In this document: positions 10,017-61,554 of the stretch, in pieces | Layout of the letters: the number at the start of each line of letters is the position of its first letter | How positions within the stretch are numbered: position 1 is the first letter of the stretch | Source of the DNA: Chamaelirium japonicum | Taxonomy: Eukaryota; Streptophyta; Magnoliopsida; Liliales; Melanthiaceae | Assembly: GCA_947650365.1 (NCBI GenBank) | Contig: OX393553.1 | Location: forward strand, 71,099,463-71,163,462 | Reading direction: 5' to 3' | Length of the DNA: 64,000 nucleotides | Notes under the pieces: model-generated | Told to the model about the DNA's origin: nothing | The model's database searches: none | Seen by the model: only the letters and a program-made list of their open reading frames with translations | Made by a program: the position numbers and the translations under genes

Positions 10017-10335
10017 ATGGGCAGATCTCCAGTTTTCTTTCTTTGTTGGCAATCATCTTCGGTCAATCCATCTCCATTGATCATCTAGGTGCTGCAAATC
10101 TTCGGCTCCTCATTTACGAGATCATCACTAAAGCGCGGTTGCCGATCATGCAGCTTCATGCTGAAAAATGTCATTTACTATCAGAATGTGAGCTTCATCG
10201 TAGATGATGCAGAGACGTTGTATACTATCAACCAATCACGATGAGATATCACAGAGGTTACTGGCTCGAGATGGGATCTTCAATGTGTTCCACAGTTGCT
10301 GGTTTCATCTCGAAGAGGCTGATGAGAAACCATAA

Positions 10336-10782
10336 GACCTCGTTTAGTAGATAGAAAGTTTCACTAAGGAGGGGGAAAGTAATGAGATTCCCTCATGTGA
10401 GTCCTAATGTGCGTGTTTGGTAGTCGGGAATGGAAAAGGTTCAACTAATTAATGGGAAAGTAAATCCATTCTTGTAAAAAAACAAGCCAACAAGTGGAAA
10501 AGTGACAGAGAATGATTTTGTTCTCCCCTCCTCCTCATTGGTCCACTTCAAGGGCTTTTGGTCATTTCCCCATGACGAATAAAATGAAATGACATACATA
10601 CCTTGAAGTGGACCAATGTGGAGGAGGGGGATGTTCCACCCCCTTTAAGGTGGGTGGAACAAAATCATTCTCGAATGTGACCGGCAACACATTCCTCTTT
10701 TCACCAAGAGGAATCATATTCTTCGGCTTAGCTTTCCCTTTCCCCTTCCTTAGTTTAAACTTTCTTGCTACCAAACCAGACC
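10336..10782. mobile_element. PIF/Harbinger (Tourist)-like MITE, copy in unit A
   Basis: Ends GACCTCGTTTAGTAG and (inverted) GGTCTGGTTTGGTAG form inverted repeats of about 26 bp, flanked on both sides by the 3-bp duplication TAA typical of PIF/Harbinger. The interior has a second inverted repeat (CATTGGTCCACTTCAAG against CTTGAAGTGGACCAATG). It has no coding capacity. Confidence 0.75.
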
Positions 10783-11429
10783 TAAACAATTAAAAGGGTC
10801 GGGTTCATGGAAAGATCTGGACCGTTGGTCTGATTTGATGGTCAAGGTGTGCTTCAATATGAATTTTGAGAGGTTACACACATAGATATGTGTGTGTGTG
10901 TGTCTGTGAATTTACAAGCAGTTTCTTTCCTTCTCATTCACTCTCTTATCCCCTCTCTATCCCAGCTTCAAATCGAACCCACCCTAAATAGTAGGTTCAT
11001 ATCCCATCCAAGAGTCTTCTTAGTGGCCCAGGGACCCCCTTATATAGGAAAGCTTCTCATGGTCCCCCTTCCATATCAATAGAATGTTCTAACCATTTCA
11101 AGTTGCAAAGTCGTTATGTCCAGCTCTTGACATGCTGTTAGAGGGGACGCCGTGCATCGTTCTCTGGACATTTTGTTTGAGGGGACATCATGTGTCACTC
11201 TCTTGACGTATTCGACAGTTAACTGCCGTATCATGTTCGGCAGCTCAATGTCGAGCATGTTTGGTTCTGAACTGTCGAACATGTTGAGCGACGGAAAGAG
11301 AAAGAAGAAGCATTGATAGCTCCGACGACAGAAAAAGAGGAATTCTCATCCAACTTAAAACCATCTATATAGAGACAACTTTCAAAAACTTCGAGAAAAG
11401 CAACAGAAACAATTATCAAGGCTTATTAT

Positions 11430-11600
11430 TATTTACTAGTAATGCCTATGTCCGAGAGCACATATAAGATTCCGAGGGTGACAAAAAAAATTTAATGGAC
11501 GTGATAAAATTTTGAGGGAGAAGACAATATTTTAACGGTGGCAATATTAATTCAAAAGCGGTGACAATATTTCGAGGACGACAATATAAAAGAAATGTGA
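11430..11600 (-). mobile_element. Helitron-like 3' end (unit A)
   Basis: On the minus strand the sequence ends GGCATTACTAG followed by T, with a short possible stem in the preceding GTGCTCTCGGACATAG. This resembles a Helitron 3' terminus. The interior is made of loose repeats of GACAATATTT-type words. No matching 5' end was found, so the element extent is open. Confidence 0.35.
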
Positions 11601-12275
11601 AAATGATTATGTATTAGTGAAATGAGATGACAAATCCTATAAAGAACCACTCGTACCTATTATGTGATGCTCCGACGCTAAAATCTGGTGTAAAAAGGCT
11701 AAAATTTTTAAGGGTTCGATAAAACTCCAATGAAGAAAAGGCTCATGTATTCTCAGCCATTGGTCTAATATCTACCATGCATATACAAAAGAACAAAAAT
11801 AATCTCAGATTCTCGTTGTCGATAATGTGCTCGTCATGCATCAGCTGCAATTTGTCGAATCCACTCCTGCCATTTATGCCACTCCTCCTGCAATCGCCAC
11901 CACTCCTTATGTCGCCCCTCTTGTCGTCGACGCCACACCCCTCGGGCACGCTATCAATGGGCAGATCTCCAGTTTTCTTTCTTTGTTGGCAATCATCTTC
12001 GGTCAATCCATCTCCATTGATCATCGAGGTGCTGCAAATCTTCGGCTCCTCATTTACGAGATCATCACTAAAGCGCGGTTGCCGATCATGCAGCTTCATG
12101 CGGAAAAATGTCATTTACTATCAGAATGTGAGCTTCATCGTAGATGATGCAGAGACGTTGTATACTATCAACCAATCACGATGAGATATCACAGAGGTTA
12201 CTGGCTCGAGATGGGATCTTCAATGTGTTCCACAGTTGCTGGTTTCATCTTGAAGAGGCTGATGAGAAACCATAA

Positions 12276-12721
12276 GACACCGTTTAGTAGATAGAAAGTT
12301 TCACTAAGGAGGGGGAAAGTAATGAGATTCCCTCGTGTGAGTCCTACTGTGCGTGTTTGGTAGTCGGGAATGGAAAAGGTTCAACTAAGGAATGGGAAAG
12401 TAAATCCATTCTTGTAAAAAAACAAGCCAACAAGTGGAAAAGTGACGAGAATGATTTTGTTCTCCCCTCCTCCTCATTGGTCCACTTCAAGGGCTTTTGG
12501 TCATTTCCCCATGACGAATAAAATGAAATGACATACATACCTTGAAGTGGACCAATGTGGAGGAGGGGGATGTTCCACCCCCTTTAAGGTGGGTGGAACA
12601 AAATCATTCTCGAATGTGACCGGCAACACATTCCTCTTTTCACCAAGAGGAATCATATTCTTCAGCTTAGCTTTCCCTTTCCCCTTCCTTAGTTTAAACT
12701 TTCTTGCTACCAAACCAGACC
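12276..12721. mobile_element. PIF/Harbinger-like MITE, copy in unit B
   Basis: Same element as at 10,336, with the same TAA flanks; it was carried along by the tandem duplication and is not a separate insertion. Confidence 0.75.
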
Positions 12722-13306
12722 TAAACAATTAAAATGGTCGGATTCATGGAAAGATCTGGACCGTTGATCTGATTTGATGGTCAATGTGTGCTTCAATATG
12801 AATTTTGAGAGGTTACACACATAGATATGTGTGTGTCTGTGTGTGTGTGAATTTAGAAGCAATTTCTTTCCTTCTCATTCACTCTCTTATCCCCTCTATG
12901 TCCCAGCTTCAAATCGAACCCACCCTAAAGAGTAGGTTCATATCCCAGCCAAGAGTCTTCTCAATGGCCCAGGGACCTCCTTATATAGGAAAGCTTCTCA
13001 TGGTCCCCCTTCCATATCAATAGAATGCTCTAACCATTTCAAGTTGCAAAGTCGTTATGTCCAGCTCTTGACATGCTGTTAGAGGGGACGCCGTGCATCG
13101 TTCTCAGGACATATTGTTTGAGGGGACATCTTGTGTCACTCTCTTGACGTATTCGACAGTTAACTGTCGTATCATGTTCGGCAGCTCAATGTCGAGCATG
13201 TTTGGTTTTGAACTGTCGAACATGTTGAGCGACGGAAAGAGAAAGAAGAAGCATCAATAGCTCCGACGACGAAAAAAGAGGAATCCCCATCCAACTTAAA
13301 GCCATC

Positions 13307-13472
13307 TGTGACAAACCCTAGAGGAAGAGAAAGAGAGAAAGAGAGAAGGAGAGCTAGGGTTTGGGGAGAGAATAGAATGAATCTCTCATTAGGCCAAATG
13401 GCCAATATAAGGTGAATACATGTGAGTCATATATACGCTGAGAGTATGTATATACACTAATACTTCTTAACA
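13307..13472 (-). repeat. Copia 3' LTR
   Basis: A 166-bp LTR with TG...CA ends; it differs from its partner at 18,498-18,663 at one position by my reading. Confidence 0.95.
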
Positions 13473-13485
13473 CCCCCCCTCAAAC

Positions 13486-18497: not shown

Positions 18498-18663
18498 TGT
18501 GACAAACCCTAGAGGAAGAGAAAGAGAGAAAGAGAGAAGGAGAGCTAGGGTTTGGGGAGAGAATAGAATGAATCTCTCATTAGGCCAAATGGCCAATATA
18601 AGGTGAATACATGTGAGTCATATATACGCTGAGAGTATGTATATACACTAATACATCTTAACA
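18498..18663 (-). repeat. Copia 5' LTR
   Basis: A 166-bp LTR, partner of 13,307-13,472, followed by target duplication CCATC at 18,664-18,668. Confidence 0.95.
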
Positions 18664-18735
18664 CCATCTATATAGAAAACAACTTTCAAGAAACTTCGAG
18701 AAAAGCAACAGAAACAATTATCAAGGCTTATTATT

Positions 18736-18900
18736 ATTTACTAGTAATGCCTGTGTCCGAGGGCACATATAAGATTCTGAGGGTGACAAAAAAAATTTCA
18801 TGGACGTGATAAAATTTTGAGGGAGAAGACAATATTTTAACGGTGGCAATATTAATTCAAAAGCGGTGACAATATTTCGAGGACGACAATATAAAAGAAA
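18736..18900 (-). mobile_element. Helitron-like 3' end (unit B)
   Basis: Duplicate of the structure at 11,430: minus-strand ...CATTACTAG|T with GACAATATTT-type repeats inside. Confidence 0.35.
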
Positions 18901-19564
18901 TGTGAAAGTGATTATGTATTAGTGAAATGAGATGGCAAATCCTATAAAGAACCACTCGTACCTATTATGTGATACTCCGACGCTAAAATCTGGTGTAAAA
19001 AGGCCAAAATTTTTAAGGGTTCGATAAAACTCCAATGAAGAAAAGGCTCATGTATTCTCAGCCATTGGTCTAATATCTACCATGCATATACAAAAGAACA
19101 AAAATAATCTCAGATTCTCGTTGTCGATAATGTGCTCGTCGTGCATCAGCTGCAATTTGTCGTATCCACTCCTGTCGTTTATGCCACTCCTCCTGTCATT
19201 GCCGCCACTCCTTATGTCGCCCCTCTTGTCGTCGACGCCACTCCCCCCGGGCACGCTATCTATCCCCCCCCCTCTCTCTCTCTCTCAAATGTCTCACTGA
19301 CCTCCGATTTAGGAAGATGACTGTGATTGGGTGTAATGGATGCCATTGATCTGTGGAGGAAAAGTTTTAGGCGAATTACTGTAATGGACAGCGACGGGCC
19401 CTCTTGCTGTATCTTTCCATTTGAATATTTGAATTCAAATTTAAAAATAAAGGGGAAAGAGGAGGATGAATCCTAGCCATTCATTTTTATCCCTTCCTTC
19501 AAACGAATATGAACCGGTAATTAAGTTTCAAAACTATCCCCCATCCTTCCCATGTTATTATAGA

Positions 19565-22646: not shown

Positions 22647-23174
22647 ATGGGCGGCGCCGGCGTCACGGTGTGTGTATCGCACATTCCCCCCACGGCGGTC
22701 GCCCAGGAGCTCTTCGACTTCTTCGAGTCTGCCGTCGGCTCCGTCTTCGCCTGCAAGATCGCCACCGTCCGGAAGGACTGGAAGCCGATGGGCTCCGGCC
22801 GCGTCCAGTTCGAGACCCCGGAGGCTGCCGAGAGGGCCTGCCGTCTCTCGGCCCAGGGGAAGCTTGGGGTCTTCCTGGGCGCCCGCCTGACCGTCCGCTC
22901 CTCGGACAAGGACATCGTCGTGAGGGCGTCAGATCCCTGGAACCGGCTGCACGGCACCATCCTCCATGCCGGGGTTCTGGCGGAGGAGCGCCGGATGGTG
23001 GCCCTGGGTTCGTGGGACCACGCCCGGGCAGAGATCATGCCCGAGAGGAACAAATTGGAGCTGTTCGTGGAGGACGGTGGCGAGCGCTACAAGCTGGAGC
23101 TCACGCTTGGGGATGTTCAGTCCACCCATGAGTGCCGTTTAGGGGGTGGGGAATCAAATGCGATTCTATTCAGG
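22647..23174 (+). CDS. RDR2: RDR2 exon 1
   Basis: Encodes residues 1-176, starting MGGAGVTVCVSHIPPTAVAQ. It is visibly GC-rich, in contrast to exon 2. The ATG follows a CT-repeat 5' UTR. The donor is AGG|GTGAGA, and the junction gives ...ILFR followed by LKFAP.... Reading on past the donor reaches a stop at 23,322 and is not part of the protein. Confidence 0.9.
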
Positions 23175-26100
23175 GTGAGATTTCTTTGCCCTTCATATAA
23201 CTTCGACGAATCATTATCATTGATCGCTTTGCTTATTGTTTGTTCAATCCTCGGTTCCAATTTCAATTTTGGGTATCTTTGGTCTGATTTTAGAATGGAT
23301 GATGGAACTAAGAGCTCGGGTTGAGCACAACTCGGAAACTTGGACGAGTTTTGCCTATTTTGACTTGAACACAGTTATAAACTATAAAGTAGAAATAGGT
23401 GGAATATAGGAAATCAGTCTTCCTGGTAAAAGCTTTTGATACTCTTATACAAATTGTTCTAACAAACAGTGTATTGTATGCTAATGTTTTGGAAAAGTTG
23501 ACCGGTAAATCTTTTCAGCTTTAATTAGAAATTTCTTTTAACATGGGACTCGTGGTCAATGTTTAATGCGGAGATATAGTTCAATAGTTTACCACGTTTA
23601 TTCTCTATAATAGTTTATGAAAATATAGATACGAAACATGTGATAGTTAACAAACTCTGGCATGTATCACTTCTTAATGTGTCTTGTATATGTGTATGTT
23701 TTATATACGTATGTATGTATGTGTATATTATATTGTTTTATTAATCAATAAGTAAAAACCCAAGACGGGGGGGGGGGGGGGGGGGGGGGGGTTCAATATG
23801 CTGGGAAGTCTTGCCCCCATGGGTTAATATTCACATGGATGGCAACCGAGCTATTTCTCCCCCCCGGCACCTCTTTTTGCGTGAAACCCCTTCTTCCCGT
23901 AATTCCTTTTAGCTGCATGCTTGTTTCTTCCTCGTTATTTGATATTTCCTCTTCCCAAGTTATTCTCCCACGTCACTTTTATCCCTCCTTTTCTTCTTCC
24001 ATGAAACCTTATGTAAAGACCCCTGATCTCCATTGTTTTCTATCAACTATTGAGATCAGATATTCTTTGTCTAAGTGCTGATTTGCACTTTTCTACCTCC
24101 TTTTCCACTCAACTTTTATCTAGCATATAGCCTTTTTTCATCTAGATCCATCCCCTCTCTTCTGCACCATTCATCTATGATTTTTCGGCTGATTGGGAGT
24201 CCTGGGACTTATTCGCTGGAAGACGAACACTCAAGAAGCCAACCAAAGGGATCAACTTTAGCATCTCCATATATTTTGTAACATCTGCCCCAAACACATA
24301 AGATATTGTCTGCTTTGCCCGTGCCCGCACGATGACTTCCCAGGAGGTCACCTATACCAGTACTACTCTCGCCCAAGCACGCTTAACTATGAAGTTCTTA
24401 TGGGATCCGTAGCGATGCACGGTTTTAAAATATGTCTTCCATATTTGGGAGGAAAAATTATATAAGTAGCTCATGATCTTCATTTCTTTAGGCGATGTGG
24501 GGCTAACATGTGGCCTTGGAAACCTCATCTCGCCTCACTTTATCCATCTTGGCATCACAGCCTCTAGAGTCTTGACTATTGGCTATTAGCTATTGGATCT
24601 TGGTCGTCACACCTTTCATCCGCTTTGTTGGACCTACCATCTTTTGATAAACCATTCTAGCAACGAGCTAAGTATTATATTTTATTTCTGAATTTTGTTC
24701 TTTCATTTCCATTATATACTGCTATCTAGATGTGCTTTGTGATTGAAATTTTTGCACTTCTCTTTTTTTCATAAACGCATCTTAAATGATTTAAAGTTTG
24801 ATAGGTGCAATATTCCCTAGTCTCGTTGGCTTAAAGTTATGCTTGATGAATTATTCCCAAGTGCCACTTATAAGCCCTTATTGAATCTTTTGTTTTCTGT
24901 GTAATATTATTTGTGCTAACTTGTATGAAGGGTTTGTTTTGAAGTAATCCTATTTTAAGTGAGTCGATCTAAAGCCAACTGCTTCACAACACAAGTTTCA
25001 CTTCGCTTTATCATCTAGGAGAGGTTTATGTTTAAGGAGTCGACTGTTTATTAAGAAGTGTTTGTCCGAACAATTCCCTGAGCCTTCCTTGATAATCTTA
25101 GCAATATCCCATCAGTTATTGTGTTAGGTTTACATGCCCCTTGAGTGTCTATTTGTAGCGTCTCGTTATATCGAATAGCATAATTTTATATATTTGCCTT
25201 CATGTCCTAATAATATTTAGGGTTCACATTTCTTTTTCTTCTCAAGCTAACACTTTGACACCATCTCAATTTGTGCCACTTGAACTAAATCCCTTTGGCA
25301 CAACTGTTTGGCAGTCCCTGACTCCCTGCATTACTGCCGTCTTTGATTGTAAACCAGACATGTTTGATCATCTTGCATTTGTGGTTGCTATTTTGGCAGA
25401 TCACCGTCTTTTGTCCTCCCCAATCTGTTTATGACTAGCTTGTGATTTTTTTATGTAGTTTTCTTTTGATCTGAACGGTTATGTAATACCTGCAATATGC
25501 AGTCAAATAGTTTAATATCAAGATCTCAATATCTATGTATTGGAGGTTAAAATAGATACCGTTTGAAACTAAGGAAGCATGTTTGAATTATATAACTAGT
25601 AGGTCGTAACATACATCTTGAGTAAATGTGGATATGAATGGATGTTAGTTTTCATTTTTAACGAATGGATTTGAAAACTGTATCACCTCTAGCATATGAA
25701 AATCACAATTCTCGTCAAGATAGTTGTGTACTTGTGTGAATATTCCGGCCTGTTCAGATGATGTTAGTTTTGTTTCCCAATGAGATACCTTATTTGAAAT
25801 TGAAATATCTCAGCTCAAGTTTGCACCAAGAATCTATCACAGAATTTGTGGACCTAAGTTCAGTTCGAAGTTTATTAGTTTTGGGAACCAGGCCTGTATA
25901 GAAGATATCCAGTTTCATTGGGTTCGTGCTACAGACTTTTCATCAAATAGCTCTATTGGGAGATCATCTTCTCTTTGTTTGGAACTTACAGAAGGATTAT
26001 CTGTTTCACGAATTCTCAAAAATTTGTTTAGTCTTGGAGAGCCTGGGGACCTGACACTAGTAAGGGGTGAACTATTTGGTTCTTCATCGAAGTTGGTTCC

Positions 26101-29100
26101 TGTAATAAGTTATCCTTGTGATTACTCAATGGCATATGAGGTTTTTTTTCAGCTGAATTCTCTTGTTCACATGCAAAAAGTTTCTTGTGCACAAGTTAAT
26201 AATGATTTGTTTGGAATTCTAAGCGAGTTATCTGTAGATTCCTCTATAAGAATCCTTAACAGGATGCATCAGCTGAAGTCAACCTGCTATAAGCCCATGG
26301 AGTTCATCCAAAATCAACTCGCTAACATCAGGCAAAATCAGCACAATATGTCAGCCAAGAAAAACATTGATGCTATAAGCCCATGGAGTTCATCCAAAAT
26401 CAACTCGCTAACATCAGGAAATTTGATGAGCTGTCATAGAGTTCTCGTAACTCCAACAAAAGTTTACTTTTTGGGTCCTGAACTCGAAAAAACTAATTAT
26501 GTAGTAAAGCATTATTCTACATATGCTTCTAACTTCCTGAGGGTTTCTTTTGTCGATGAAGATTGGAACAAGCTTCCCGCTGATGCTATTTCAACAAGGA
26601 TTGACCAAGGTGTATTCGCTAAACCTTTTAAAACGGGTATATATAGACGAGTACTATCTACTCTCAGAGATGGAATTTTAATTGGTTCAAAGAAGTTTGA
26701 GTTTTTGGCCTTTTCTGCTAGTCAACTTCGTTCAAATTCTGTTTGGATGTTTGCTTCTGATGGAAGCGTGACAGCAGAGAGCATCAGACAATGGATGGGT
26801 CATTTCAGAAGAATCAATAGTGTTTCAAAATGTGCTGCAAGAATGGGTCAACAATTCAGCTCTTCTGTGCAAACATTAAACGTTCTACCCCCGGATGTCA
26901 AGGTCATGCCAGATGTTGAAGTTATTACTGAGGGCATCAAATATTGCTTTTCAGATGGTATTGGAAAAATTTCTTTATCTTTTGCCCGGCATGTTGCTCA
27001 AAAGTGTGGACTGAATCATACCCCTTCAGCTTTCCAGATTAGGTATGGTGGTTACAAAGGAGTTATAACTGTTGACCGCACTTCCTTTCAGAAGTTGTCA
27101 TTGCGCCCTAGTATGTTAAAGTTTGATTCGAAGAGCACAATGCTCAATGTCACTAACTGGAGTCAGTATTTGCCATGCTTTTTAAATCGTGAAATTGTTT
27201 GTCTTCTGTCTACGTTGGGAATTGAGGATGGAATATTCGAGTTGATGCAACAAGACCAAATGCGTCTTTTAGATGAAATGTTAGGGAACAGAGGGGTTGC
27301 TTTGATGGTTTTGGACAGAATGACGGGATCTGAAATTAGAACGGCTGTAAAGATGTTGCTGCAAGGCTATGAACCAAATTCAGAGCCTTACCTTTCAATG
27401 ATTCTCAAGGCTTATCGGGAATACCAGCTATCTGATATAAGAAGTAAGTGCCGTCTCTTTGTACCCAAAGGTCGGATCCTCATTGGATGTTTGGATGAAA
27501 TAGGCACATTAAATTATGGTCAAGTGTACGTGAGGGTAACAATGACAAAGGAAGAGTTAGAAGATAACAATCATACTTTCTTTGAGAAAATTGACCAAAA
27601 AACAGCGGTCATAGTCGGAAAAGTGGTGGTTACAAAAAATCCGTGCCTCCACCCCGGTGATATTAGAGTACTCCAGGCTGTCTATGATCTTCAGTTCGAT
27701 GATATGGATTTAGTTGATTGCATTGTGTTTCCTCAAAAAGGTAAAAGGTATGTATGATCTCAGAATTTTTCTTTAATTGTTTTTCTCTATTTTAAAAGAT
27801 AATAAATTTGCTTTATTTTTGAAATTTGCCTGTTCCTTGTTCAAAATTCGTAATCATCAAATAGCATAATTAGCAAGCATATGAACAATGCTCCAAATAT
27901 CATATCTAGTGAGAGTATACTTCAAAATGTATTTGTTTTCGTTGTGAAGTTCATATTTTGTTATTTTCAATTGATATCTTACACATCATTTTAAAACTGT
28001 ATTGATTTGGTAAAGTATGTAGCTTTTTTGAAATCCATAGGACACCCCATTTCTAGATATTGGAGTTCGTAAGATATATTTCCAGATGAAACACAGATGA
28101 GCTTCTCTCTCCGGGTTCACGCTTCTACTGGATCGAGCAAGAATAGTAATCTATCATGTTGTTTAGGCAGCTTATGGTTGCGTGAGCTTAAACTGTGTAA
28201 CAAACAAACTGAGTAACCAACATGGTATGTCTTCCTACCGGCCAACTGGCGCTTTAGGTTTCTTGGGTCCATTTCCTGCCAAGTTGGCTTGGTCAGGTTT
28301 TTAACACCAATCTTAAAGGGTTAATGTCATAGCCGATTGGAATATTTTTTCAATCTCTCTATGTTGACCCTGTCTTATTGGGATTGGACTTTTGAATGAT
28401 GATGACTTTAAGGTCTATTCTGAAGCCATTCAAGAAAACAATGGTGTTGGAAATTACAATTGTCTCTTTGATGTTGTCGTCTCTTTTACAGTTCTCAATT
28501 CCTTAACTTTATCCGGTTTTATGTATTATGTGGTGTAAACCGTGTAGTTTTTACTACCTAAGGAGAAAGAGTATAGGTGACACAATTTTCTTATGGTGAT
28601 GTCGTAATAGAGCCATTGTGGAGGATCCATTTCATATTGGCAGCTGAATTTATTCTTCATTTTACTTAATATCTTAAGGGTTTGAGCATGTTTTAGGTAG
28701 TCTAATTCAGGTAGAACATGCATAATAATAGGAAACTATAAGAAATGTTGGAAAAATTGGAGTTCCATTTGGAACTTTCTTTTTGGATTTATATTAAAGA
28801 AAGAAAAATTATTGAGAGAAGCTTTTCTTAAGCATGAATGGTGCAATTCTATATACATGCCACGTTTTACCTTAGGCAGCTCTGGTCTAAATGCAAGGTA
28901 GAAAGCACGATCATGATCCGTTGAGAAAACAATCGGGTATTCATCGCCTTCCGCTGGGTGCTATTGATCCGAATTAATGACGTCCCCCTTTTATGATAGA
29001 GAATCGTATGGCTTTAGAAGTTCCAATATGGTGGTCTTGACTTGGTCTTCATCGGGTACAAGGGAGATAAACTTGGCCATTTCGAACTCGTATGGAACTC

Positions 29101-32100
29101 GATCCAATAGGCTAGAACTGCTGCCTCTCATCTCGACTCGCCTGGGCGAAAATCCTGGGAGCTTGAGCTTCTGCCTGCACCTGGGCAGGGTTTTAAATAT
29201 CGACCGATACCGGTACGTACCGGTCCGTATCGTCCGGTACGGACCGGTACCGACAGATTAAAGTTTTTTTTTTTTGTGGTTTTTTGGTTTTTTTCGGGTT
29301 TTTTTTTTTTCTCAATTGGTATCGGTCCGTATCGGCGGGTAACGATACGTACCGGCCGGTACATACCTGTTCGGGGCCGACCGATACCGCGACCGATACC
29401 GTGATTTTAAACCTTGCACCCGGGTTCACCCGGGTGAACACATCTTTTTTCCACAGGCAATCCCCTTCTAAATGACACCCCTTTTTTCATCCATTATGCT
29501 CATATAGACCGTTGTTCGCAGCCGCCTCTACGGCCCGTTGGTCCTATCCAACCCATCGTCGTCTCTTCCTTTTCCCCTACCACCTCCTTTCACCTTCCTC
29601 CTCACCTTCTTCCGCCTCTTTCCCCTCTTCTTCCTCCTAGAAATCGCGACACTTGGCCATTTCGGGTCGTGTGCACCTTCTATGCATTCGGTCATGGAGG
29701 CCAAATGCAACTACAAGACATTCAGTCGATGGGATGCATTTAGCCTCCAATGGCCGAATGTATTGTAGATGCATTCGGTTTCCATGGCCGAATGGACCTT
29801 CTGTGCATTATTTAGGGGTGGCCAAATGCACAAAAGGTGCATTTAGCCTGGCATGACCAAGTCTTAGAATTTCCAGGAGGAGGTGGGGGAACGAGGAGGA
29901 AGAAGCAGGGGAGGAAAAAGGAGGAAGAAGAGGAAAAAGGAGGAGAATAGAGGAAGAAAAGGACGAGGAGGAAGAAGGGGGAGGAAAAAGATGAGGAAGG
30001 AGGATGTGGCGTGGTGGGTTATCGGTGACAAAGGATAGCGGCGTCCTGCACATGGTTGACGATGATAGCAGTGGCGGGGGTTGCCTGTAGTAAAAGAGTA
30101 TGGATGCAACAGGGACATGATGGGTATTTTTACATTTTAAGTTGGAGCTACCTTTGGTATTTCGTGGGTTGTATGTAGCCCTACCCTTTGTATAAACTAG
30201 ATCCATTTAGGTTGCTCTAGACTCAGGCTAGACTAGCCTTATGTTGGTGTTGGGGGAAATATGATCGCAGCCATTTCGTGTCCACTGAATTGTGATCTAG
30301 TGTTTCCATGAAGATAGAGTGATATTGGCACACTAATGGATGAGCAAGTTACCAATGTTTATTTAGGGAAGTAATATGTAGGTAACAAGTTATAATTATA
30401 TATTAGGAATATGTGGTTGCTTTTAGAAATTGGCCCTTATTAGTTTATCCAATAGTGAAACATTTGCATGATGTGACACTGCCCTCGTTGGCGCAGTTGC
30501 CTTTGCCACCAATCCTGTCGTCGGCGCAGTCGTCTCGACTCTCGACAGACATTTTTCCGGCTGGTGCTTTCACTAGTATCTGAGTTTTGGGATATGTGTG
30601 TACCTGTCGTACCCATTGAAGAGCAGGTCGTTGGTGGGTGGCATAGGTGGTCAGTTCCGACTTCCGAGTAGAATTCATCTGCATGGGATGAGTCGTGTTG
30701 GGGGAAATTGGCTCGCACCAATGCCAATCCCTTTACTGTGGAAGCCTTTAAGCCCTCCGGATGATGCTCAAGGTTCGAGGATCGGAGCTCTACAGAGATC
30801 GCACAACCATATAGAGAATTCGATACGCCATAGTAATAAACATCACAGATTCATCAGACTATAAATGATTTTGATTATTACAAGAGAATACACCATACAG
30901 TGATCACCATTTGTCAGACCCCGCAAACCCTCATCTTGCTCCTCTCATAGAACACACTCAGGAAGTAGAGAGCAACCCACCTGAGAGATACATAGATATA
31001 CCGAAGGATCACTAAGAGATGAAAGCGCCTGCCGAAACAGACGCGTCGAAGAACCTGGATGAAGACTTGGATGAACTTGTAGGAGAACTTGAGAAGGGCA
31101 GGAGCTTTTTTTGCGCCGGCGAGCCCCCAGGACGAGGAGGAGACCCGGAGATGGAGGAGAGGGGGAGCAGCAGCTCCCCCCTGCATACGAGCACTGGCGA
31201 GCCCCCAGCATCTCAAACCCGAACTGCGAAGCCTTCATTCTCGCAGGCGGTTCAAGCTGGGTGCACCCCTCTTCGCATCGATAACATCCCCCTCGAGCAG
31301 AGAACCTATTCCTCTCGCGAAGGATGCCCAGCGATCTGCTTCACGGATAGAGAAATTCATCTCTCAACCACCCCTTTTGATATGTTCCTGGTAGCTAAGT
31401 TCTCTAGCGCTAGGCCGTCGGTTGATGTCATCAGAGCTTACATACACCAGCATTGGGGCATGGAAAACCCTTTCCATGTGGGCGCTATCGATTCAAAACA
31501 TGTGCTGATTAGATTGAGCTCTAAGGAGGACCTGATCAAAGCTTGGACGAGGGAGTCTTTCTTCATCAAAGGAGTTGGTTTTCGTTTGTTCAAATGGGCC
31601 GTCAATTTCAACCCATACGTAGAATCACCCATCACTCCAATCTGGGTGGCATTACCAGGATTGCCAGTGAATTTCTTTGTTGAATCATTTCTGTTTGCAG
31701 TTGTCGGCTCCATCGGCAAGCCTCTTACATCAGACAATCCTTCGAAGAATCTCACTAGGCCTAACTTAGCAAGAGTGTGTGTCTTGATGGATATTTCGAA
31801 GCCTCTTCCAGACAAGGTATGGTTGGGGTTCGGGACTCAAGGTGGTAGGTGGCAAAAGGTCCACTACGAGAATCTTCCCCCATTCTGCACCATCTGTTCG
31901 ATAAAAGGCCACAGTGAAACTTCTTGTAGAAAGAATGTGCAGAAAAACCATGGCAAGCTAGCAGGGAAAAATGTTCGTTTTAAGACCAAAGATATAGCTA
32001 ATCCTACTTCAGCCCTGGTTGGAATAACAGGTACAAATCCGGTTGGGGAAGTAACAGAGGCCTCTCATGGATTGAGAAGGGGAACAAGCACGGAAGGTTC

Positions 32101-35100
32101 ACAAGGCACAACAGTTCAGTTAGAGGAGCTAGCAAGGAAGGAGTGTAGCACCGTACAAAGAAGGCAAGAAGATAGCAGCCATTCTATTGAGGTGAGCAAC
32201 CAATTTAAGGTGCTTCAAAGCTTAGATAATAATGATACTATTATTGCCAATACCAAAGATTCAAAAGCTTTAGAAGAGGAGGAAAGGGCAGAGGAAGGTC
32301 AAGAAGGAGCAGAAGCTATGTTTGAGATGGAAAGAGATGACTTAAATACAATGCAAAATGTAGTGAACAATGCTTCAGGTGCTGAAATTGCTGTAGGAAA
32401 TTTTGAGTTGGCAAAGACAGTTAAGGTGCTTCAAGAGCACAAGAGTCCTGCAAAGCTTACGACTCTGTGAATAGAGAGTTTCTGCTACATGCCCTTCAGA
32501 GTTTGGGGTTCAACGAGACGTGGGTGAAGTGGATTAGAGTGTGCATTTGCTCTCCCTCCTTTTCCATCCTTGTGAATGGATCTCCCGCAGGTATGATAAA
32601 AGCTAATAGGGGGCTGAGGCAAGGGGACCCTCTATCAGCATATCTGTTTACCATCGTGATGGAATGTTTGTCGTTACAGATCGAATGGGGAGTGCTAGGG
32701 GGTGAGTGGAGGAGTTATGGTCTGGGAGGAGGGCACCCTATTTCCCATTTAATTTTTGCTGACGACCTCATGCTATTCTTGAAACCAAACAAGGAGGCAG
32801 TAGGAAGGCTTGTGGAGGTACTTCATAGGTTCGGAGAAAAATCAGGGCTGGCTATCAATGCAGACAAAAGCCAAATCTTCTTGTCTAGATCATGTGCAAA
32901 CTTCTATCATGAGATTGCAGAGTTCGGGATTAGCATGGGAACATTGCCGGTGAAGTATTTGGGACTGCCTCTATCCACCTCCATAGTGAACAGAGTCATG
33001 TTCAGACCCCTCATGGAGAAAGTCACAAACACTATTGAGTGCTGGGCCATAAAACATTTATCCATCGGGGGAAGATTGCAACTAATCAAATCCGTGCTCC
33101 AAAGCTTTTCCTATTTCTGGGCATCGGTGTTCGCGATACCAAAATTGGTTCAATCCAAAGTGGAGAAACTTATGCGAGATTTTCTTTGGCAAGGATCTGC
33201 CACTCATGTCAAATGGAGAAGGTGTGCAAGCCAAAAGAGGAAGGCGGGTTGGGGATTAGAAGGTTGAGTGATATTTCGAAAGCTAGCCAGCTTAGATTGG
33301 GCTGGAAGATAGTAAGTGGAGATAATAATCTTTGGGCCAAGTGGATGAGAGGTAGATATGTTAGGAATTGCAATTTTTGGAAGTTGGAAAGGTCGGCTAA
33401 TGCCTCGGCTGTTTGGAATGGAATATTAGACAGTAGAGAGCACTTGAAAGAAAACTTAAGGTTCCCCATTGCAGCAGATTCGGAGATAGATTTTTGGCAT
33501 GATCCTTGGATCGAAGGGCAAAGTCCAGCAGCGATTGTGGGAGAGCAAGCAATGTACAACCAGCAGTCGCAAGGAGCCGTGGTTCGAGATTTTATTCTCA
33601 ATGGGGGCTGTAATCTACCGAGGGCTACTAGTAGAAGGGTGAGAGAGTTGTTTGACAGAATTTCAGAGGTGCAGATTTTACCAGCTGGATCGATATGCAA
33701 AGTTGAATGGGTGAATAGCACACACAACAATTTCAGCTTTCGTACAGCTTGGGGAGCCGTTCGAGATAGAGATGAAGAGGTGAGATGGAAAAATCTAATT
33801 TGGAGAAGCCCCGTCCCTCCTAGAATGGCCTTTTGTATGTAGAGAGCGATGCTCGATCGGCTAGCAACTCAAGATGTTCTTAAAGGTAGAGGGGTAAGGC
33901 TTGCAAACAGATGCACCTTATGCAAGAACGAGGAAGAATCGGTTGACCACCTGTTTTTCCAATGCAACTTTTCCCAGCGGGTATGGAGTCATTTCTGCAA
34001 GCTGATACAGGTCCCAGTAGATCCCAATGAAGGTCTGATTGAACTCACTAACAGGTTGAGCTATTTCGGGGGAGGTAAAAGCTTGAAGGGGAGGATAGTC
34101 AGAACCACATTAGCATGCGTTGCTTATACCATATGGGGGGAGCGAAACGAAAGGATTTTTGGACTCCACGATAGATCCTTTCAGCAAATTCAGAATGACA
34201 TTAGTTTCCAGTTGAAGAACATCTTCTCTGGTAGTGAAGAAGCTAACTTGAAGGAGGTAGATAAAGTGAAACTGCATGCTTGGAGAGGGAGCTTATAAAG
34301 ACTGATGGTTCATACTAGAGAAGTATGGAACTTCGGGCTAATTTGATGCATGAAGTAGAAGTTGACGAGAATCAGCTATGTGCAAAACCTACTTCTACAG
34401 ATTTCAGCGAGGAGCAAAATTAAATCTGAATAGGTTTTCGCAAGCTTTAGTAAGGGAAGGAGTATATGAGGTGCTAGGATTCCTGGTGTTTGCTACATTA
34501 GAGTGCTACTATTTGTTGCTGCATGAGGTATTGGTATTCTGGTCAGATAGGGACTACTATTTTTGTGTTTGCAAAGCCTTGATTTGTAACTTGTCTTTCT
34601 TTTAATACATAGTTCTAATTATCTTTCAAAAAAAAAAAAACTTGTAGGAGAACCCGGAGACGAACCTCTACTCTCTTCCCTTCTTCCTCTTTTCTCTTTT
34701 TTCCTTCTTTTCTCCTTGCGGTAAACTCTAGACCGGGTTTCTCGTTCACTTCTTGTCCTTTCGATTTTCTCTCAATTCTCTATCTAGAAGAACAACTCCA
34801 CCTTGGTCATCGGTCGCCATGCTCCCTCGAGCATCCAAGAACTGGGGGGGAGCACCGTGCTGGCGCTCCTACCTTTGATTTTCTCTCGCGACCCGTTTTT
34901 CTCCGTAGACGATCTCAAACACATCCGGTAGCTACAACTCATATTTCCTATACCCCCCCCTTTATACCCCCCTTTTTTAAGGGAGCAAATGTATCGTTGT
35001 AGAAGTCCAAATCTGACTCAAATCCGCAGCCTAACTGCGCCAGCCCGCACCCGATTTGCCCTGGCGAAAACAGACTCGCCCAGGCTAATTGTTCACGCGT

Positions 35101-38100
35101 TCTATCACAGACCCAACATGTGATTCGCCCAGGCGAGCCCAACTTTGTCCGGGAATTTGTGTAGTCAGACTACTTCGAGTTTGGTTTTTGCAAGCCAGAA
35201 CCTAACAATCTCCATCTTGGTTTGAAAAAGCCAATTCCGCCATCGCCGCTACCCGAGAGAACCAATGATAATGCAATGTCTTCCTTGTCGCCACTTTTGT
35301 ATCCTACACCAAGTGCCCGTTCACCTAGATCGCTGATCGACCAAGTCTAATTTGCCTTTGGACTTGCTCTGAAGTCGGAACCTACTTTATTTCCTGGCGC
35401 TCGAACATGCTCCACATGCAGACTTATTTCTTCACTGAACCCTCTGCCTTTGAAGCTACCCTCGCTGCGAGCCTGCGACCATGTACAAGCCTCCATTGTA
35501 AAGTCTCTCCAAGATCAAAAATTGTTGTCCGAAACCTCCAGGATTCCACCAAACCAGTGATCCTGTACCTGAGAGAATCTAATCTGAAAAGAAAGATTTA
35601 GATAACTTCTCAAAAACCTGGTGCATAATGGACGCTCATGAGTATCCATATTGTATCATCAGACATCCTCAAGTGAATATATCTGGATCCCTTGGTCAGT
35701 TTCCTGGAGCCATCACCTGTTCGTTATTTTGCTACCCTCACACCCCATATAGCTATTGAACTACGCTGCTCCGCTTCGTGTGAACACACGTGCCCCCTGC
35801 TATCCAGTACTCAGTCTTGACCTGATTTCTAAGTGGCCGCCAAGATAACCCATCATCCGAACCTGATAATCCAACCAGATTAGCATATCATTTGACCTAT
35901 ACATCTCTATTACTTTCGGCCGACCTAAAGCGCTTTTCAGAACTTGCTCCACTTTTCCTTCTACAATCACGTGTCTAGGCTTCAAGCCCGCAGTGGTCTT
36001 CTCCTTGAAGATAGTTGAGGTAAGACGAATCAATCATAATACTGTTGAGAACCTTCCAATCCTTCTCGGATATCCCCTTCGGCTTGTCCACCTTTCCACC
36101 CAGAGGCAAAGATCTATCTGCACCTGTTAAAATCCGAAGTTCGTACCATTGAATTTCTCGATCCTCAACTTTGCGTCATCTGCAATTTGCTTCAACATCC
36201 TCGGAACCTCACATTGAACCTTTGGCTCTGATACCAATTGTTGGGGGAAATTGGATTGCACAGATGTTAATCCCTTAACTGCGGATGCCATCAATCCCAC
36301 AGAGAATTCGATAGACCATAGTAACAAACACCACGAATTCGATAGACCATAGTAACAAACACCACGAATTCACCAGACAATCAAGGATTTGGATTATCTC
36401 TAGGAAGATAATACACCATGCAGTGGTCTTCGTTTATCGGACCCCGAAAACCCTCGTCTTGCTTCTTTCACAGAACACACCCACAAAGTAGAGAACAACC
36501 CGTCCGAGAGATTCAGAGATATATCAGATGATCATCAAGTGATGAAAGCGTCAATTGAAGTAGAAGCCCAAGTAGACGTGCCGAAGAACCTGGATGAAAA
36601 CTTGGACGAGCTTGAAAGAGAACTCGGATAGGAACCTCCATTCTCTATTCCCTTCTTCCTTCTTTTTTCTTCCTCACTTCTCTTTTTCTCTTCTTTCCTT
36701 TATCTCTCTTCTCTCCTTGCGGCAAACCTTAGACTGGGTTTCCCGTTCTCTCATCGTTCTTTGATTCCCTCTCAATCCCCTACCTAGAAGAACCACTCCA
36801 CCATGGTCACTGGGCGACATGCTCCCTCGAGAATCCTAGAGCCCAGGGGGAGCGTCATTCCAACATCGCCCCGAATCCTTCAATCTTCGCACACGACTCG
36901 CTCTTTGTCGTAGATGATCTCAAACATCTCCGGTACCTACAACTCAGATACCCTAGGTCCCTCCATGTCCCCTCCTCCTCTTTATAAGGGAGCAAATGAA
37001 TCGTCATAGGAGTCCTAATCTGACTCAAATCCGTAGCCTAATTGTGCCAGCCGGCACCCAATTCGCCCTGGCAAAAACAGGCTTGCACGGGTGAATTGCT
37101 CATGCGTTTTGTCACAAACCCAGTTCGCGATTCGCCCGTGCTAGCCCAAATTCGTTTGGGCAAAATTCCTGCAGTCAGACTGCTTCAGTTTGGTTTTTGC
37201 AAGCCAAAACCCAATAAGCCATAATATTCTTTGGAATATGATGAGGCGTAATGTTATATGAGAAGTTGTGTCATACGCCAATGCCACTTTTATCTTTTTT
37301 TAGAAGAATATGGATGAAAATTTTGCTTGACGAGAGGCGTGTTGAGCGACATGTGCGTTATGTTGTTGAGAGACGATTGATAAATGAAGCGGCGAGGTGG
37401 AGGGAAAGACAAAGGCTACGACTGTGGAAGGAAAGATAGGGACAAATATTGAATAATGCGACGAAATGGAGGTGATGACGTTAGCAAAACACTGTAAATA
37501 TATATAAATATATGTAAATGTATCATATATGATGATTATCAATTTTTTTTTTTAAAGTTTATTGATATTCCATCTTGGTTATCATGGTCCATGCACACGT
37601 ACTATTATTTGGTATATTTTCTAATAACAATTCATGTAAATATGTGCAACATAACTACAAAAGACTTAAATTTAAAAATACTTGAAAAAAATCCAAAATC
37701 CTCTTTTTTAACTATTTTGAAATTTTTTGTCATTTTGGCCAAAATTTCGACTGAAATTTCAGTTTGGAAACCATGCTCTGATCTATAACATGAGTTTTAG
37801 TTCAACATTCAGTTCCTATTAAACCAGAGAGGTGTTAAATAAATTTATTTTAAACCAGTGAGGCATTGTATATCATGCAATGCCTGTGTCTGCTATATAT
37901 CTTCTGCTAATAGTCATGTCTACTGTATCCCTTCTCCTAATATCATGCAATGCCTGTGTTTACTATATCCCTTCTCCTAAATCCTAATACATACTATGTT
38001 TTTGCATTAGTTCTTAACATAAAAGTAACACATCTTTAAACTTAGCGCAGAACAATTATGTACCCTCTTTATTCAGGAAACAAATTGGGAGTGTACAATG

Positions 38101-38923
38101 TCTGTTTAGAATTCTTTATGACAGTGGTGTTGATGAATGCAGGCCTCATCCAAATGAATGCTCTGGAGGGGATTTGGATGGAGACCTATATTTTGTATGT
38201 TGGGATGAGAAACTTATTCCAGTGAAAACTGATACACCAATGGACTACATTCCACGAAGGCCGCGCCTTATGGATCATGAAGTCACATTAGAGGTTTGCT
38301 TCACTGTCCAACCTCTTATCACTGAACTGGAATCTTGTCCTCTTTGATGTTTCTGCTTATTTGATTTATGCACAATTTTAGATAGAGATTGTTGATAACT
38401 AGAATTGAGGTGTTCACTTGCACTTATTACATAGAAGTGAATTATATTTGTTTAAGATAGACGTAAGGTGGAGATGCAGTGCAACCAGTTAAATCATGAT
38501 GTAGCCAATACCGAAGGTATGATCTACAAAAGGAGTCTAAACTAACCCACTTTTCTCTGGTTTTATTAATCCTGTAATTCACCTTGTTACATTTTTGAAC
38601 TTTACTAAAATATATATCCTAAAAGAGCAATTGGTGAAGAAAGTGTGCGGTCGTGGTTTAGTCGAGCCCATACTTTATTATTAGTCCAATGACGATCCCT
38701 TGTTTTATTTTTTATATTCTTTCATTGCAAATGTTTGCATGCACCATGAGTAACCCACACCAGTAAAAGCCTAGAAAATAGGATTCAATCATTAAAGAAA
38801 AGGAATATAGAAAAAAAAAGGCCTCAAAACCTCATCCATTTTTTTTTAATGGCCGACATCTCTTGATTGTTAACTCTTACTTTTCATCCCACTTGGACAT
38901 AGCATAAATATTTACCCCCCCCC

Positions 38924-38958
<35 letters not shown>

Positions 38959-40029
38959 ACCCCCTCTTTCTCTCTCTATTTCTCCAACACAACACAACCC
39001 CAAACACTCACTCCAACCCCCCCCCCCCCCCCCCCCCCCCCCGCCAAAGGACACTAGATCGCGTGTTTGAAAACTAAGCAATGGACATAAAAGAAAATAA
39101 AAACTGCATCATTATGGATCTGAAATCACAGGAAAATATTTTCCTAAATTAATATGTAATCCTAGCTCTCTCAAATCATGATTTAGTATTTTTAATAATG
39201 AATGTCACGTCGTTTACAAAAACATTTGTTGATTATTACTACCATATTTCTTATTCTTAATCTTTAAAATTTGCAGGAGATTCAAAAGTTCTTTGTTGAT
39301 TACATGATCAATGACACCCTGGGTGTCATCTCAACCACTCACTTGGTTTACGCTGACCGCCAACCGAAGAAAGCCCGGAGTAGCGAATGCCTCCGGCTCG
39401 CAAGCCTCCACTCCATGGCGGTCGACTTCGCCAAAACCGGAGCTCCGGCAGAAATGCCAAAGATACTCAAACCGAAAGAGTTCCCAGATTTCATGGAACG
39501 ATGGGACAGGCCGATGTACCTCTCAACCGGAGTTCTGGGAAAGCTCTACAGAGCGGCCTCGGCTCATGTGGAGAGGTTTGAAGCACCTCAGCAATCTTCG
39601 TACGACTGTGATCTTGAAGTAGAAGGTTACGAGGAATTTATAGAAGCTGCCGAAGGATACTACAATCGGTACGCTGAGAACCTGAGCTCCTTGATGAACT
39701 ATTATGAGGCGGAGCACGAAGATGAGATACTGACGGGTAATCTGCGGAACCGGTCGATATATCTGCAGAGAGATAAGAAGAGATATGCTGAGATGAAGGA
39801 CCGGATTTTGATCGGGGTTAAGAGCTTGCACGGTGAGGTCCTAGGGTGGTTCGAATGTAGCTGTGACAAAAGCGAGTCGTACAGGATGGCGTCTGCATGG
39901 TACCACGTGGCTTACCACCGAAACTATTGGTCGAAGGCTAGATTCCTCAGCTTTCCGTGGATCCTAAGCGATGTTTTGTTGAGCATAAAAGCTTCGAGAA
40001 CCCATAAAAGGTTATCAGAAGGTGTGTAG
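22647..40029 (+). CDS. RDR2: RNA-dependent RNA polymerase 2 (RDR2), four exons
   Basis: Exons are 22,647-23,174, 25,814-27,747, 38,143-38,293 and 39,277-40,029. All three introns are GT-AG (phases 0, 2 and 0), giving about 1,121 residues, close to the 1,133 I recall for Arabidopsis RDR2. RDR2 copies RNA polymerase IV transcripts into double-stranded RNA, which DCL3 cuts to 24-nt siRNAs for RNA-directed DNA methylation in the nucleus. An RRM-like N-terminal region (1-85) is followed by the RdRP core with blocks QIRYGGYKGVI, KNPCLHPGDIR and the catalytic DLDGD (831-835). The C-terminus ends in SFPWILSDVLL. Wording throughout matches RDR2 rather than RDR1 or RDR6. Exon 2 carries a 16-residue insertion (about 362-378). 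Intron 2 is 10.4 kb and full of transposons. The reading frame is open throughout, so the gene looks functional; transcription across intron 2 is unproven. Confidence 0.93.
23767..23791. repeat. Poly-G run
   Basis: About 25 consecutive G residues inside RDR2 intron 1. Confidence 0.9.
24279..24508 (-). mobile_element. Cassandra-like solo LTR with 5S rRNA-derived core
   Basis: On the minus strand the segment runs TGTTAGCCCCACATCGCC ... GATGTTACA. Its middle (about 24,402-24,318) closely follows 5S rRNA (GTTAAGCGTGCTTGGGCGAG, then AGTAGTACT and GGTGACCTCCTGGGAAG). LTRs carrying a 5S-like pol III promoter define Cassandra TRIM elements. Only one LTR is seen and no target duplication could be fixed, so it is an old solo-LTR fossil. 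It is not a working 5S gene. Confidence 0.75.
25814..27747 (+). CDS. RDR2: RDR2 exon 2
   Basis: Encodes residues 177-820 plus two bases of codon 821. The acceptor (ATCTCAG|CTCAAG) is supported because translation from it, LKFAPRIYHRICGPKFSS, resembles Arabidopsis RDR2 following its LLK. The donor AAAAG|GTATGT restores FPQKGK-R-PHPNEC when joined to exon 3. It contains most of the RdRP core and the 48-bp internal copy at 26,371-26,418. Confidence 0.9.
26285..26418 (+). repeat. 48-bp direct repeat in RDR2 exon 2, read in two frames
   Basis: The 48 bases at 26,285-26,332 (starting TGCTATAAGCCCATGGAG) recur exactly at 26,371-26,418. The offset of 86 bp is not a multiple of three, so the first copy reads CYKPMEFIQNQLANIR and the second reads AISPWSSSKINSLTSG. 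Leaving the second copy out gives ...NIENLMSC, which resembles the family sequence at this place. The copy therefore looks like an in-frame 48-bp insertion. Confidence 0.9.
29185..29417. mobile_element. Palindromic MITE with GTACCGGTACGG-type core
   Basis: Ends GGTTTTAAATATCG and CGTGATTTTAAACC are inverted repeats, and both halves repeat words such as CCGATACCGGTACG and CGGTCCGTATCG. The centre has runs of T and A. No coding capacity; no target duplication was fixed. Confidence 0.55.
29540..30010. mobile_element. Foldback repeat with CT-rich and GA-rich arms
   Basis: The left arm (CTTCTTCCTCCTAGAAAT then ACACTTGGCCAT) is mirrored by the right arm (ATGACCAAGTCTTAGAATTT then CCAGGAGG). Between them lie several copies of a TGCATTCGG / GGCCAAATGCA word. 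No ORF with family features is present. Confidence 0.5.
31151..32470 (+). pseudogene. LINE ORF1 protein (DUF4283 and CCHC zinc knuckle)
   Basis: About 440 codons from the ATG at 31,151 (an upstream in-frame ATG at 31,019 lies in the host LTR and is not the LINE's own). A DUF4283-type nucleic-acid-binding region lies at about 31,370-31,850 (DMFLVAKFSSARPSVDVIRA, FNPYVESPITPIWVALPGLP, LARVCVLMDISKPLP). It is followed by the knuckle C-x2-C-x4-H-x4-C (CTICSIKGHSETSC, about 31,886-31,927). The C-terminal part is acidic and Glu-rich. The last codons run into the deletion junction before the RT remnant, so the true C-terminus is probably lost. Confidence 0.8.
32454..34298 (+). pseudogene. LINE reverse transcriptase remnant and zf-RVT region
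   Basis: Starts abruptly inside RT motif A (KAYDSVNREF). It continues with motif B (NRGLRQGDPLSAYLF) and the catalytic LIFADDLMLF. A frameshift near 33,220 moves the frame (KPKEEGGLGIRRLSDISKA) and a stop lies at 33,840. A further segment at 33,849-34,298 has the zf-RVT region (CTLCKNEEESVDHLFFQC). Endonuclease and RT fingers are missing. Not functional. Confidence 0.85.
34655..35207 (-). repeat. Remainder of the left LTR beyond the LINE
   Basis: Continues the LTR interrupted at 31,088. It is similar to 36,620-37,216 (phrases CTAGAAGAAC, CATGCTCCCTCGAG, TTTGGTTTTTGCAAGCCA) and ends AACCTAACA. Confidence 0.75.
37217..37985. repeat. 3' part of intron 2 with short tandem repeat
   Basis: AT-rich intron sequence. 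At 37,862-37,985 the phrase ATCATGCAATGCCTGTGT and TATCCCTTCTCCTAAT recur about three times in diverged form. Confidence 0.6.
38143..38293 (+). CDS. RDR2: RDR2 exon 3 (catalytic DLDGD)
   Basis: 151 bp completing codon 821 and encoding PHPNECSGGDLDGDLYFVCW ... MDHEVTLE (822-871). The DLDGD loop (38,171-38,185) holds the catalytic aspartates of the cellular RdRP family. Copies of this exon exist at 59,299 and 63,369. Confidence 0.92.
38294..39276 (+). other. RDR2 intron 3
   Basis: 983 bp, GT-AG. It contains two poly-C tracts (38,917-38,936, joined to CT repeats, and 39,018-39,041). Much of it is also found, diverged, at 59,638-60,964. Confidence 0.85.
38917..39041. repeat. Two poly-C tracts flanking CT repeats
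   Basis: C-run plus (TC)n at 38,917-38,958 and a second C-run of about 24 at 39,018-39,041. Confidence 0.9.
39277..40029 (+). CDS. RDR2: RDR2 exon 4
   Basis: Encodes the last 250 residues, starting EIQKFFVDYMINDTLGVIS, with the family blocks AVDFAKTGAPAEMP and KEFPDFMERWDRPMY and the end SFPWILSDVLLSIKAS. The stop TAG is at 40,027-40,029. The acceptor TTTGCAG|GAG joins in phase 0. Confidence 0.92.
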   Translation, partial: EIQKFFVDYMINDTLGVISTTHLVYADRQPKKARSSECLRLASLHSMAVDFAKTGAPAEMPKILKPKEFPDFMERWDRPMYLSTGVLGKLYRAASAHVERFEAPQQSSYDCDLEVEGYEEFIEAAEGYYNRYAENLSSLMNYYEAEHEDEILTGNLRNRSIYLQRDKKRYAEMKDRILIGVKSLHGEVLGWFECSCDKSESYRMASAWYHVAYHRNYWSKARFLSFPWILSDVLLSIKASRTHKRLSEGV

Positions 40030-59983: not shown

Positions 59984-61424
59984 AATGCGCCATCAACTAT
60001 ATTTCATTGTATGGACTATATGTATTGTTCAATGACTTCTTTGACTTATGACAAAAAAAGGGGTCTAAACTAACTTTTATTCTGATAATACACCCACTTT
60101 CCTCTGGTTTTATTAATCCTATAATTCACCTTGTGACGTTTTTGAACTTTACCCAAATATATCCTGAAATAACTTTTTACTCTTTCATTGCAAATGCTTG
60201 CATGCACCATGAGTAACCCACACCAGTAAAAGCCTAGAAAATAAGATTCAATCCTTAAAGAAAAGGAATATAGAAAAAAATCTACAAGACCTCATCTAAA
60301 TTTTTATTTATGGCCAACATCTCTTGATTGGTAACTCATACTTTTCATCCCTCTAGGTCATAACATAAATAATTATCCCCTCCCCCTTTTCTCTCGGTCT
60401 CTCTCTCCAACCCAACCCAACCCAACCCCAAACACTCACTCCAAAACACACACAACCCAAATGACCACCACAAAAAATCATTAAAACTAAGCTATGAACA
60501 TAAAGGAAAATTAAAGCTGCATCATTATCGATCTAAAATCACATATAATTATTTTAATAAATTAATATATAATCCTAGCTCTCTCAACTCATGATTTAGT
60601 ATTTTTAATAATGAATGTCGCATCGTTTACAACACATGGTCAAACAAATATCGATATACATACCTGTTTTTTAAGGTTACTTGCACTGCTAGAAGAAAAG
60701 GATGCAATTCATTAATATCGAAGATTAGAGTTAGATAATTGGAATTTCCACTCTTCTTAAACTATATCTAACTTCTATGTTGTATATCATTTGAGAGCAC
60801 GGTTCAAATGTTCGTTATCAGGTCTAGTGGTCTAGTATAGGCAGGAAAAAAATCCGATGCGACTCGGCGATACGTCACGAACGAAACAAAGGGAAGACAG
60901 CATATATATGGGCGCTCAGGCTTCCTAATTGCTATTGTGGCTCGGGCTGATAAAAAATCTGCAGGAGATTCTAAAGTTATTTGTTGATTACATGATCAAT
61001 GACACCCTGGGTGTGGTTTATGCGGACCGCCAACAGATGAAAGCCCAGAGTAGCGAATGCCTCCGGCTTGCAAGTCTACAAAACAGGAGCTCCAGCTGAA
61101 ATGCCAAAGATACTCAAACCCAAAGAGTTCCTGGATTTTATGGAACGATGGGACAGGCCGATGTACCCTTCAACCGGAGTTTTGGGAAAGCTCTACAGAG
61201 CAGCCTCGAGTCATGTGGAGAAGTCTGAAGACCTCAGCAATATTCCCTATGACTGTGATCTTGTAGAAGGTTACGAGGGTTTTATAGAAGCTGCTGAAGG
61301 ATGTTATGATCGGTACGCAGAGAAGGTGAGCTCCTTGATGAGCTATTACGAGGTAGAGCACGAAGATGGGATACTGACGGGTAATCTGCGGAACCAGTCG
61401 ATATATCTGTAGAGAGATAAGAAC
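59143..61424 (+). pseudogene. RDR2 3' fragment pseudogene (end of intron 2 to part of exon 4)
   Basis: Collinear with 37,985 to about 39,780. It begins with the last part of intron 2 (TGACAGTGGTGTTACTGAATG, first 20 bases shared in kind). An exon 3 copy (59,299-59,637) still contains the DLDGD codons at 59,337-59,352 but is split by about 170 extra bases and has a stop (CCGTAA). An intron 3 copy with insertions follows. An exon 4 copy (60,965-61,424) lacks two short pieces present in RDR2 and breaks off after the NQSIYL block, where a stop (TAG) occurs. It cannot make a polymerase. Confidence 0.9.
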
Positions 61425-61554
61425 AAATAAATTGGACTTTGTTAATAGTAAATTTTTGTAAATTATAGACTGCTCTTGCTCTTCTTGTTGTTGAAATTGC
61501 AAATAACAGTCTCAAGGCAATTAAATTTGGCTTTGAGATAAAGATGCTTCTACA

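Follow-up and report, generated by a model that had tools for sequence, protein, structure and literature searches.

The closest described counterparts of the insertion considered here are templated ('filler') insertions of the type left by Pol theta-mediated end joining and the natural tandem duplications of plants. Quantitative data on the former come from a large mutagen data set whose species we take to be C. elegans. Inserts templated from the flanks of a break are regular products of Pol theta-mediated end joining in Arabidopsis (PMC10923293) and also outside Arabidopsis (PMC5068794), according to the sections of these papers cited here. The inserts of the mutagen data set are, in the same sections, mostly under 25 bp with a mean of about 10 bp, 37-44% of them map 20 bp or less from the breakpoint, and about 30% are free of errors, the error rate being roughly 1 in 30 bp (PMC5068794). 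Among rice structural mutations larger than 50 bp, insertions stem most often from tandem duplications (PMC7971508), which have also been treated in mouse cells (PMC5730883), again with reference to the cited sections. Narrowly worded searches of the openly licensed literature returned no paper on an in-frame insertion in RDR2 or on out-of-frame or templated coding insertions, which is not proof of absence.

In Chamaelirium japonicum, a block of 48 bases occurs twice within a single exon of RDR2 and is translated in two different frames. The window, that is the whole stretch of DNA analysed, comprises 64,000 bases, and the features on which the argument depends are located in it as follows.

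22647-23174, + strand: RDR2 exon 1 (RRM and start of the PH-like domain); ATG, open frame, donor AGG/gtgaga
25814-27747, + strand: RDR2 exon 2 (rest of the PH-like domain, helical region and first part of the RdRP domain, with the repeat inside); acceptor ctcag/CTCAAG, donor TAAAAG/gtatgt
26285-26332, + strand: copy 1, template, in the native frame, coding for CYKPMEFIQNQLANIR; resembles the corresponding place in maize, Arabidopsis and the plant's own RDR1
26333-26370, + strand: spacer of 38 bases between the copies, native linker QNQHNMSAKKNI..
26371-26418, + strand: copy 2, insertion, in another frame; contributes to residues 362-378 (DAISPWSSSKINSLTSG)
38143-38293, + strand: RDR2 exon 3 with the catalytic DLDGD; acceptor tgcag/GCCTCA, donor TTAGAG/gtttgc; aligned to 7w84 and 7eu0
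39277-40029, + strand: RDR2 exon 4 to the stop TAG; acceptor tgcag/GAGATT; 7w84 alignment to residue 1117 of 1121

The earlier note, made from the letters alone, had read the gene as an intact RDR2 carrying identical 48-bp blocks whose starts lie 86 bp apart in one exon and in two frames, and the present analysis bears out both statements. The four exons, whose borders were set from alignment and splice consensus and not from transcripts, join into a frame of 1121 codons with no internal stop, and all three introns are of the GT..AG type. Pfam recognizes the RdRP domain PF05183 (427.7 bits, cut-off 23.8; 1.1e-127 in exon 2), RRM_1 in the exon-1 frame (28.2 bits, cut-off 20.7; 1.8e-06) and PH_RDR2 in exon 2 (4.3e-17), exon 1 alone reaching 24.8 bits for the latter, under the cut-off of 27. 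The catalytic triad DLDGD is intact (CSGGDLDGDLYF in exon 3). The best PDB matches of the product are RDR2 chains, with only a few plant RDR chains among the matches: residues 3-1117 align to 7w84, which we take to be maize RDR2, with 1378.8 bits, and residues 7-1116 to 7eu0 with 1320.8 bits. The 7eu0 chain carries the name 'RNA-dependent RNA polymerase 2', and the segment 866-890 of Arabidopsis RDR2 printed in PMC8020760 occurs in its sequence. Judged from these alignments, the gene is RDR2, complete and intact.

This RDR2 appears to be single-copy in the assembly. Exon 2 has at least one DNA match there, and a protein search, with four matches among five candidates scored, recovered RDR2 itself and at least three further RDR loci that are 42-45% identical; from their resemblance we take these three to be RDR1 (C10) and two RDR6-like genes. 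An RDR2 paralogue lacking the insertion, which could have served as an internal outgroup, was looked for and not found among these matches. The RDR2 3' end is present twice more, 19-24 kb downstream in the same orientation, as decayed partial copies (59138-61429 and 63211-63769). They retain parts of exon 3, of intron 3 and of the end of intron 2, and the first retains exon 4 sequence as well, the matched pieces being 75-92% identical; no match to exon 2 was found in these copies at 59-64 kb. Both are embedded in near-duplicate blocks (58115-59183 versus 62092-63161, 97.7%; 59025-59966 versus 63089-64000, 93.0%), the second of which reaches the end of the window. Intron 2 (27748-38142) is about 10.4 kb long and contains long open frames at 31016-34298 that by eye resemble parts of a non-LTR retrotransposon. 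Elsewhere in the window, a 1.35-kb block is repeated at 97% about 1.9 kb apart (10017-11366 and 11957-13307), and neighbouring stretches recur as well (11345-11958 at 18648-19263, 95.8%; 13307-13474 at 18498-18665, 99.4%); these are possibly parts of mobile elements.

The two copies are identical at 48 of 48 bases. They form the sole exact direct repeat of at least 15 bases and spacing under 400 in 26001-26700, and a repeat finder lengthens the match to 51 bases (98%, one mismatch). A window-wide search allowing up to three mismatches returned these two matches only, against 0 expected from 100 dinucleotide shuffles, and in the 1,518,659,071 bases of the whole assembly the exact 48-mer has two forward matches, both in RDR2 exon 2, with 0 reverse and 0 reversed-control matches. 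Copy 1 begins at codon position 1 and copy 2 at codon position 3, within one open frame, so that the same bases code for CYKPMEFIQNQLANIR in the former and AISPWSSSKINSLTSG in the latter. Translated in its three frames, the block is open in two and contains two stops in the third. In the spliced protein, copy 2 affects residues 362-378, two hybrid codons included.

Comparison with orthologues indicates which copy came first. In its native frame copy 1 is the CYxPxxF segment common to maize and Arabidopsis RDR2 and, more weakly, to the plant's own RDR1: ungapped BLOSUM62 scores of the copy-1 peptide are 37 against Arabidopsis, 41 against maize and 27 against RDR1, with 0, 1 and 14 of 100,000 shuffles respectively scoring as well. 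The copy-2 peptide, compared ungapped with the two orthologous linkers, shows no likeness beyond that of shuffles (13,039/20,000 and 2,288/20,000 reach its score). The linker, measured from CY/CF to the C (A in RDR1) ahead of the RdRP domain, is a length outlier with 50 residues, compared with 34 in maize, 38 in Arabidopsis and 36 in RDR1, and removal of copy 2 returns it to 34. Because copy 1 matches the orthologues in its native frame while copy 2 does not, and because the linker is otherwise of maize length, copy 1 is, on these alignments, the template and copy 2 the addition. The reverse direction, with copy 2 ancestral, is ruled out by the conserved protein segment sitting in copy 1.

The templated, in-frame nature of the second block had been proposed in the earlier note and agrees with these comparisons; the LTEQNIMSC that it remembered from Arabidopsis is indeed present in the Arabidopsis sequence. 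Its figure of 16 added codons fits the difference from maize (+16) and fails against Arabidopsis (+12), and since the two orthologues disagree in this way, a replacement of up to about 12 bases during insertion is conceivable. In gapped alignments, both orthologues score higher without the insert (150 versus 147; 152 versus 146), and shuffled inserts equal or beat the real one in 48/2000 cases for Arabidopsis and 34/2000 for maize; this may reflect chance, or it may be a weak hint that a few edge bases of copy 2 overlap the ancestral linker.

A single locally templated insertion is the best explanation of this locus, with a probability that we put at about 0.88. A break or stalled fork would have arisen in RDR2 exon 2 in an ancestor of Chamaelirium japonicum and would have been healed by DNA synthesis copying, in direct orientation, 48 bases located 38 bases upstream, the copied bases then being joined in at 26371. 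The net length change is a multiple of three and the block is open in the frame where it landed, so that RDR2 kept its frame and gained about 16 (12 to 16) residues in the variable linker that leads from the four-helix bundle to the slab. Break repair or template switching would be the route, and retention in a tolerant linker would have been near-neutral.

A head-to-tail tandem duplication is ruled out by the 38-base spacer, and the pair takes the form of a templated insertion because it has two new junctions (spacer/copy 2 and copy 2/downstream) instead of one. The same end point could be reached in two steps, first a tandem duplication of 86 bp (48+38) and then deletion of the second 38-bp spacer, since +86-38 likewise gives +48. 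In rice, tandem duplications make up about 70% of insertions, a share that declines above 125 bp, according to the cited section of PMC7971508, and two A's past the mismatch at base 49 agree downstream of both copies. Yet this path needs two events and passes through an intermediate that is out of frame (86 is not divisible by 3), its deletion must begin where the 48-base block ends, and apart from the two A's no spacer remnant is evident 3' of copy 2; we consider it improbable.

A slightly smaller chance attaches to an artefact of assembly or polishing, by which the second block would be absent from the plant. The sequence does come from one assembly only; however, the two blocks together cover just 134 bases, a distance bridged by ordinary reads, the repeat stands at a single locus in a 93-Mb contig, and a length that happens to be a multiple of three and to leave the 1121-codon frame open would have to be due to chance.

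The locally templated insertion had also been called recent. The absence of any difference over 48 bases agrees with this, but it is the sole basis for the claim and allows an age of up to about 5-19 Myr. If 6.5e-9 and 2.6e-9 substitutions per site per year are taken as plant rates, the 95% upper limit set by zero differences is about 5-12 Myr with all 96 sites free and 8-19 Myr with about 60 free sites; the range is an upper bound, not a date, and depends on the rates assumed. The insertion would date back no further than a few to about twenty Myr.

Its position in the protein bears on the question of consequence. In Arabidopsis RDR2, residues 1-360 form the N-terminal region including the four-helix bundle, and the slab comes next, as stated in the cited section of PMC8713982. 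Opposite the insert, the alignment has its gaps at Arabidopsis residues 362-372, adjoining the end of that region, and maize and Arabidopsis already differ by four residues in this stretch. From these alignments, the insertion site is a variable inter-domain junction, in which the copy-2 segment may form a solvent-exposed surface loop, and a tolerated longer linker is the likeliest outcome.

A more consequential reading would be that the self-copy in another frame created a new regulatory linker, rich in Ser/Thr and for instance phosphorylated, which connects the helical bundle to the slab, regulates RDR2, alters 24-nt siRNA production and was kept by selection. The gene is still intact and the segment contains S/T-rich and SP sequence. 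Against this, the zero differences between the blocks speak against great age, and the contact with Pol IV, mapped to residues 866-890 of Arabidopsis RDR2 in the cited section of PMC8020760, lies far from the insert in sequence and is conserved in this RDR2. We regard this reading as very unlikely, slightly more so than either of the preceding alternatives; if it were true, DNA of the gene itself, read in another frame, would have given rise to a new protein segment that selection then retained. Insertion of a transposable element or other dispersed repeat, which has nothing in its favour besides the insertion itself, can be dismissed at the level of exact matches, as the 48-mer has just two of them in the assembly, both in RDR2 exon 2, and no third exact copy exists in 1.52 Gb to point to a multi-copy source.

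The estimate of how common such repeats are in this genome covers 278,442 bases, made up of the window (64,000), the three other RDR loci, L003-L005 (14,442), and twenty stretches of 10 kb each at round-number positions on C1-C7; L001, L002, L006 and L007 were excluded before the count for their overlap with the window. Exact direct repeats of at least 30 bases with a spacing of 20-400 were counted once a complexity filter had been applied, and they form 29 clusters, 20 with multiple pairs (arrays, nested duplicates) and nine with a single pair. Three of these nine are both gapped and at least 40 bases long, namely the RDR2 pair, L013:3864 (58 bases, spacing 64) and L016:9740 (40 bases, spacing 205), which leaves two isolated gapped repeats of this length in the 214,442 bases beyond the window. 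In this small sample, which was not aimed at genes, the count suggests that this class of repeats is not rare. The position of the RDR2 pair in a coding exon, with the frame kept, is less ordinary. In the same sample, a unit of about 23 bases (GAATGAATTAGAATGGATCGTAC and variants) forms dense arrays that fill much of L009, L010 and L015, at least three of the twenty 10-kb stretches, and is apparently an abundant satellite.

The locus shows legibly how a coding sequence can acquire new residues by copying DNA of its own into another frame while the gene is kept, with copy, template, direction and gene all identified. As RDR2 is an enzyme of siRNA-directed DNA methylation and seemingly single-copy here, the effect of the linker extension is directly testable.

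With the plant RDR2 enzymes (Arabidopsis RDR2 and maize MOP1/RDR2; PDB 7eu0, 7roz, 7w84) the product shares the domains, the catalytic DLDGD and near full-length alignment, and it differs from those of Arabidopsis and maize by a linker from the helical region to the RdRP domain that is 12-16 residues longer. The natural tandem duplications of plants (rice; patch-mediated repair) resemble it as local duplications of tens of bases that involve no transposon, but the copies here are not head to tail, 38 bases lying between them. Among repair products, the inserts of the Pol theta type are mostly under 25 bp with a template usually within about 20 bp, whereas the present one is longer. Pol theta in particular is not established as the enzyme and is not specifically assigned, because the insert is 48 bp long and perfect and the end of its template lies 38 bp away. 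Since the insert is longer and farther from its template, other copying routes, such as synthesis-dependent annealing and replication template switching, are at least as likely as Pol theta end joining. Copy 2 looks like an ordinary scar of DNA repair that reveals no new mechanism, and it shares with templated insertions their main traits: a direct-orientation copy of a nearby flank, two new junctions, and no other genomic source found, the inserted bases being identical at 48/48 to a sequence 38 bases off and present at 2 sites in 1.52 Gb.
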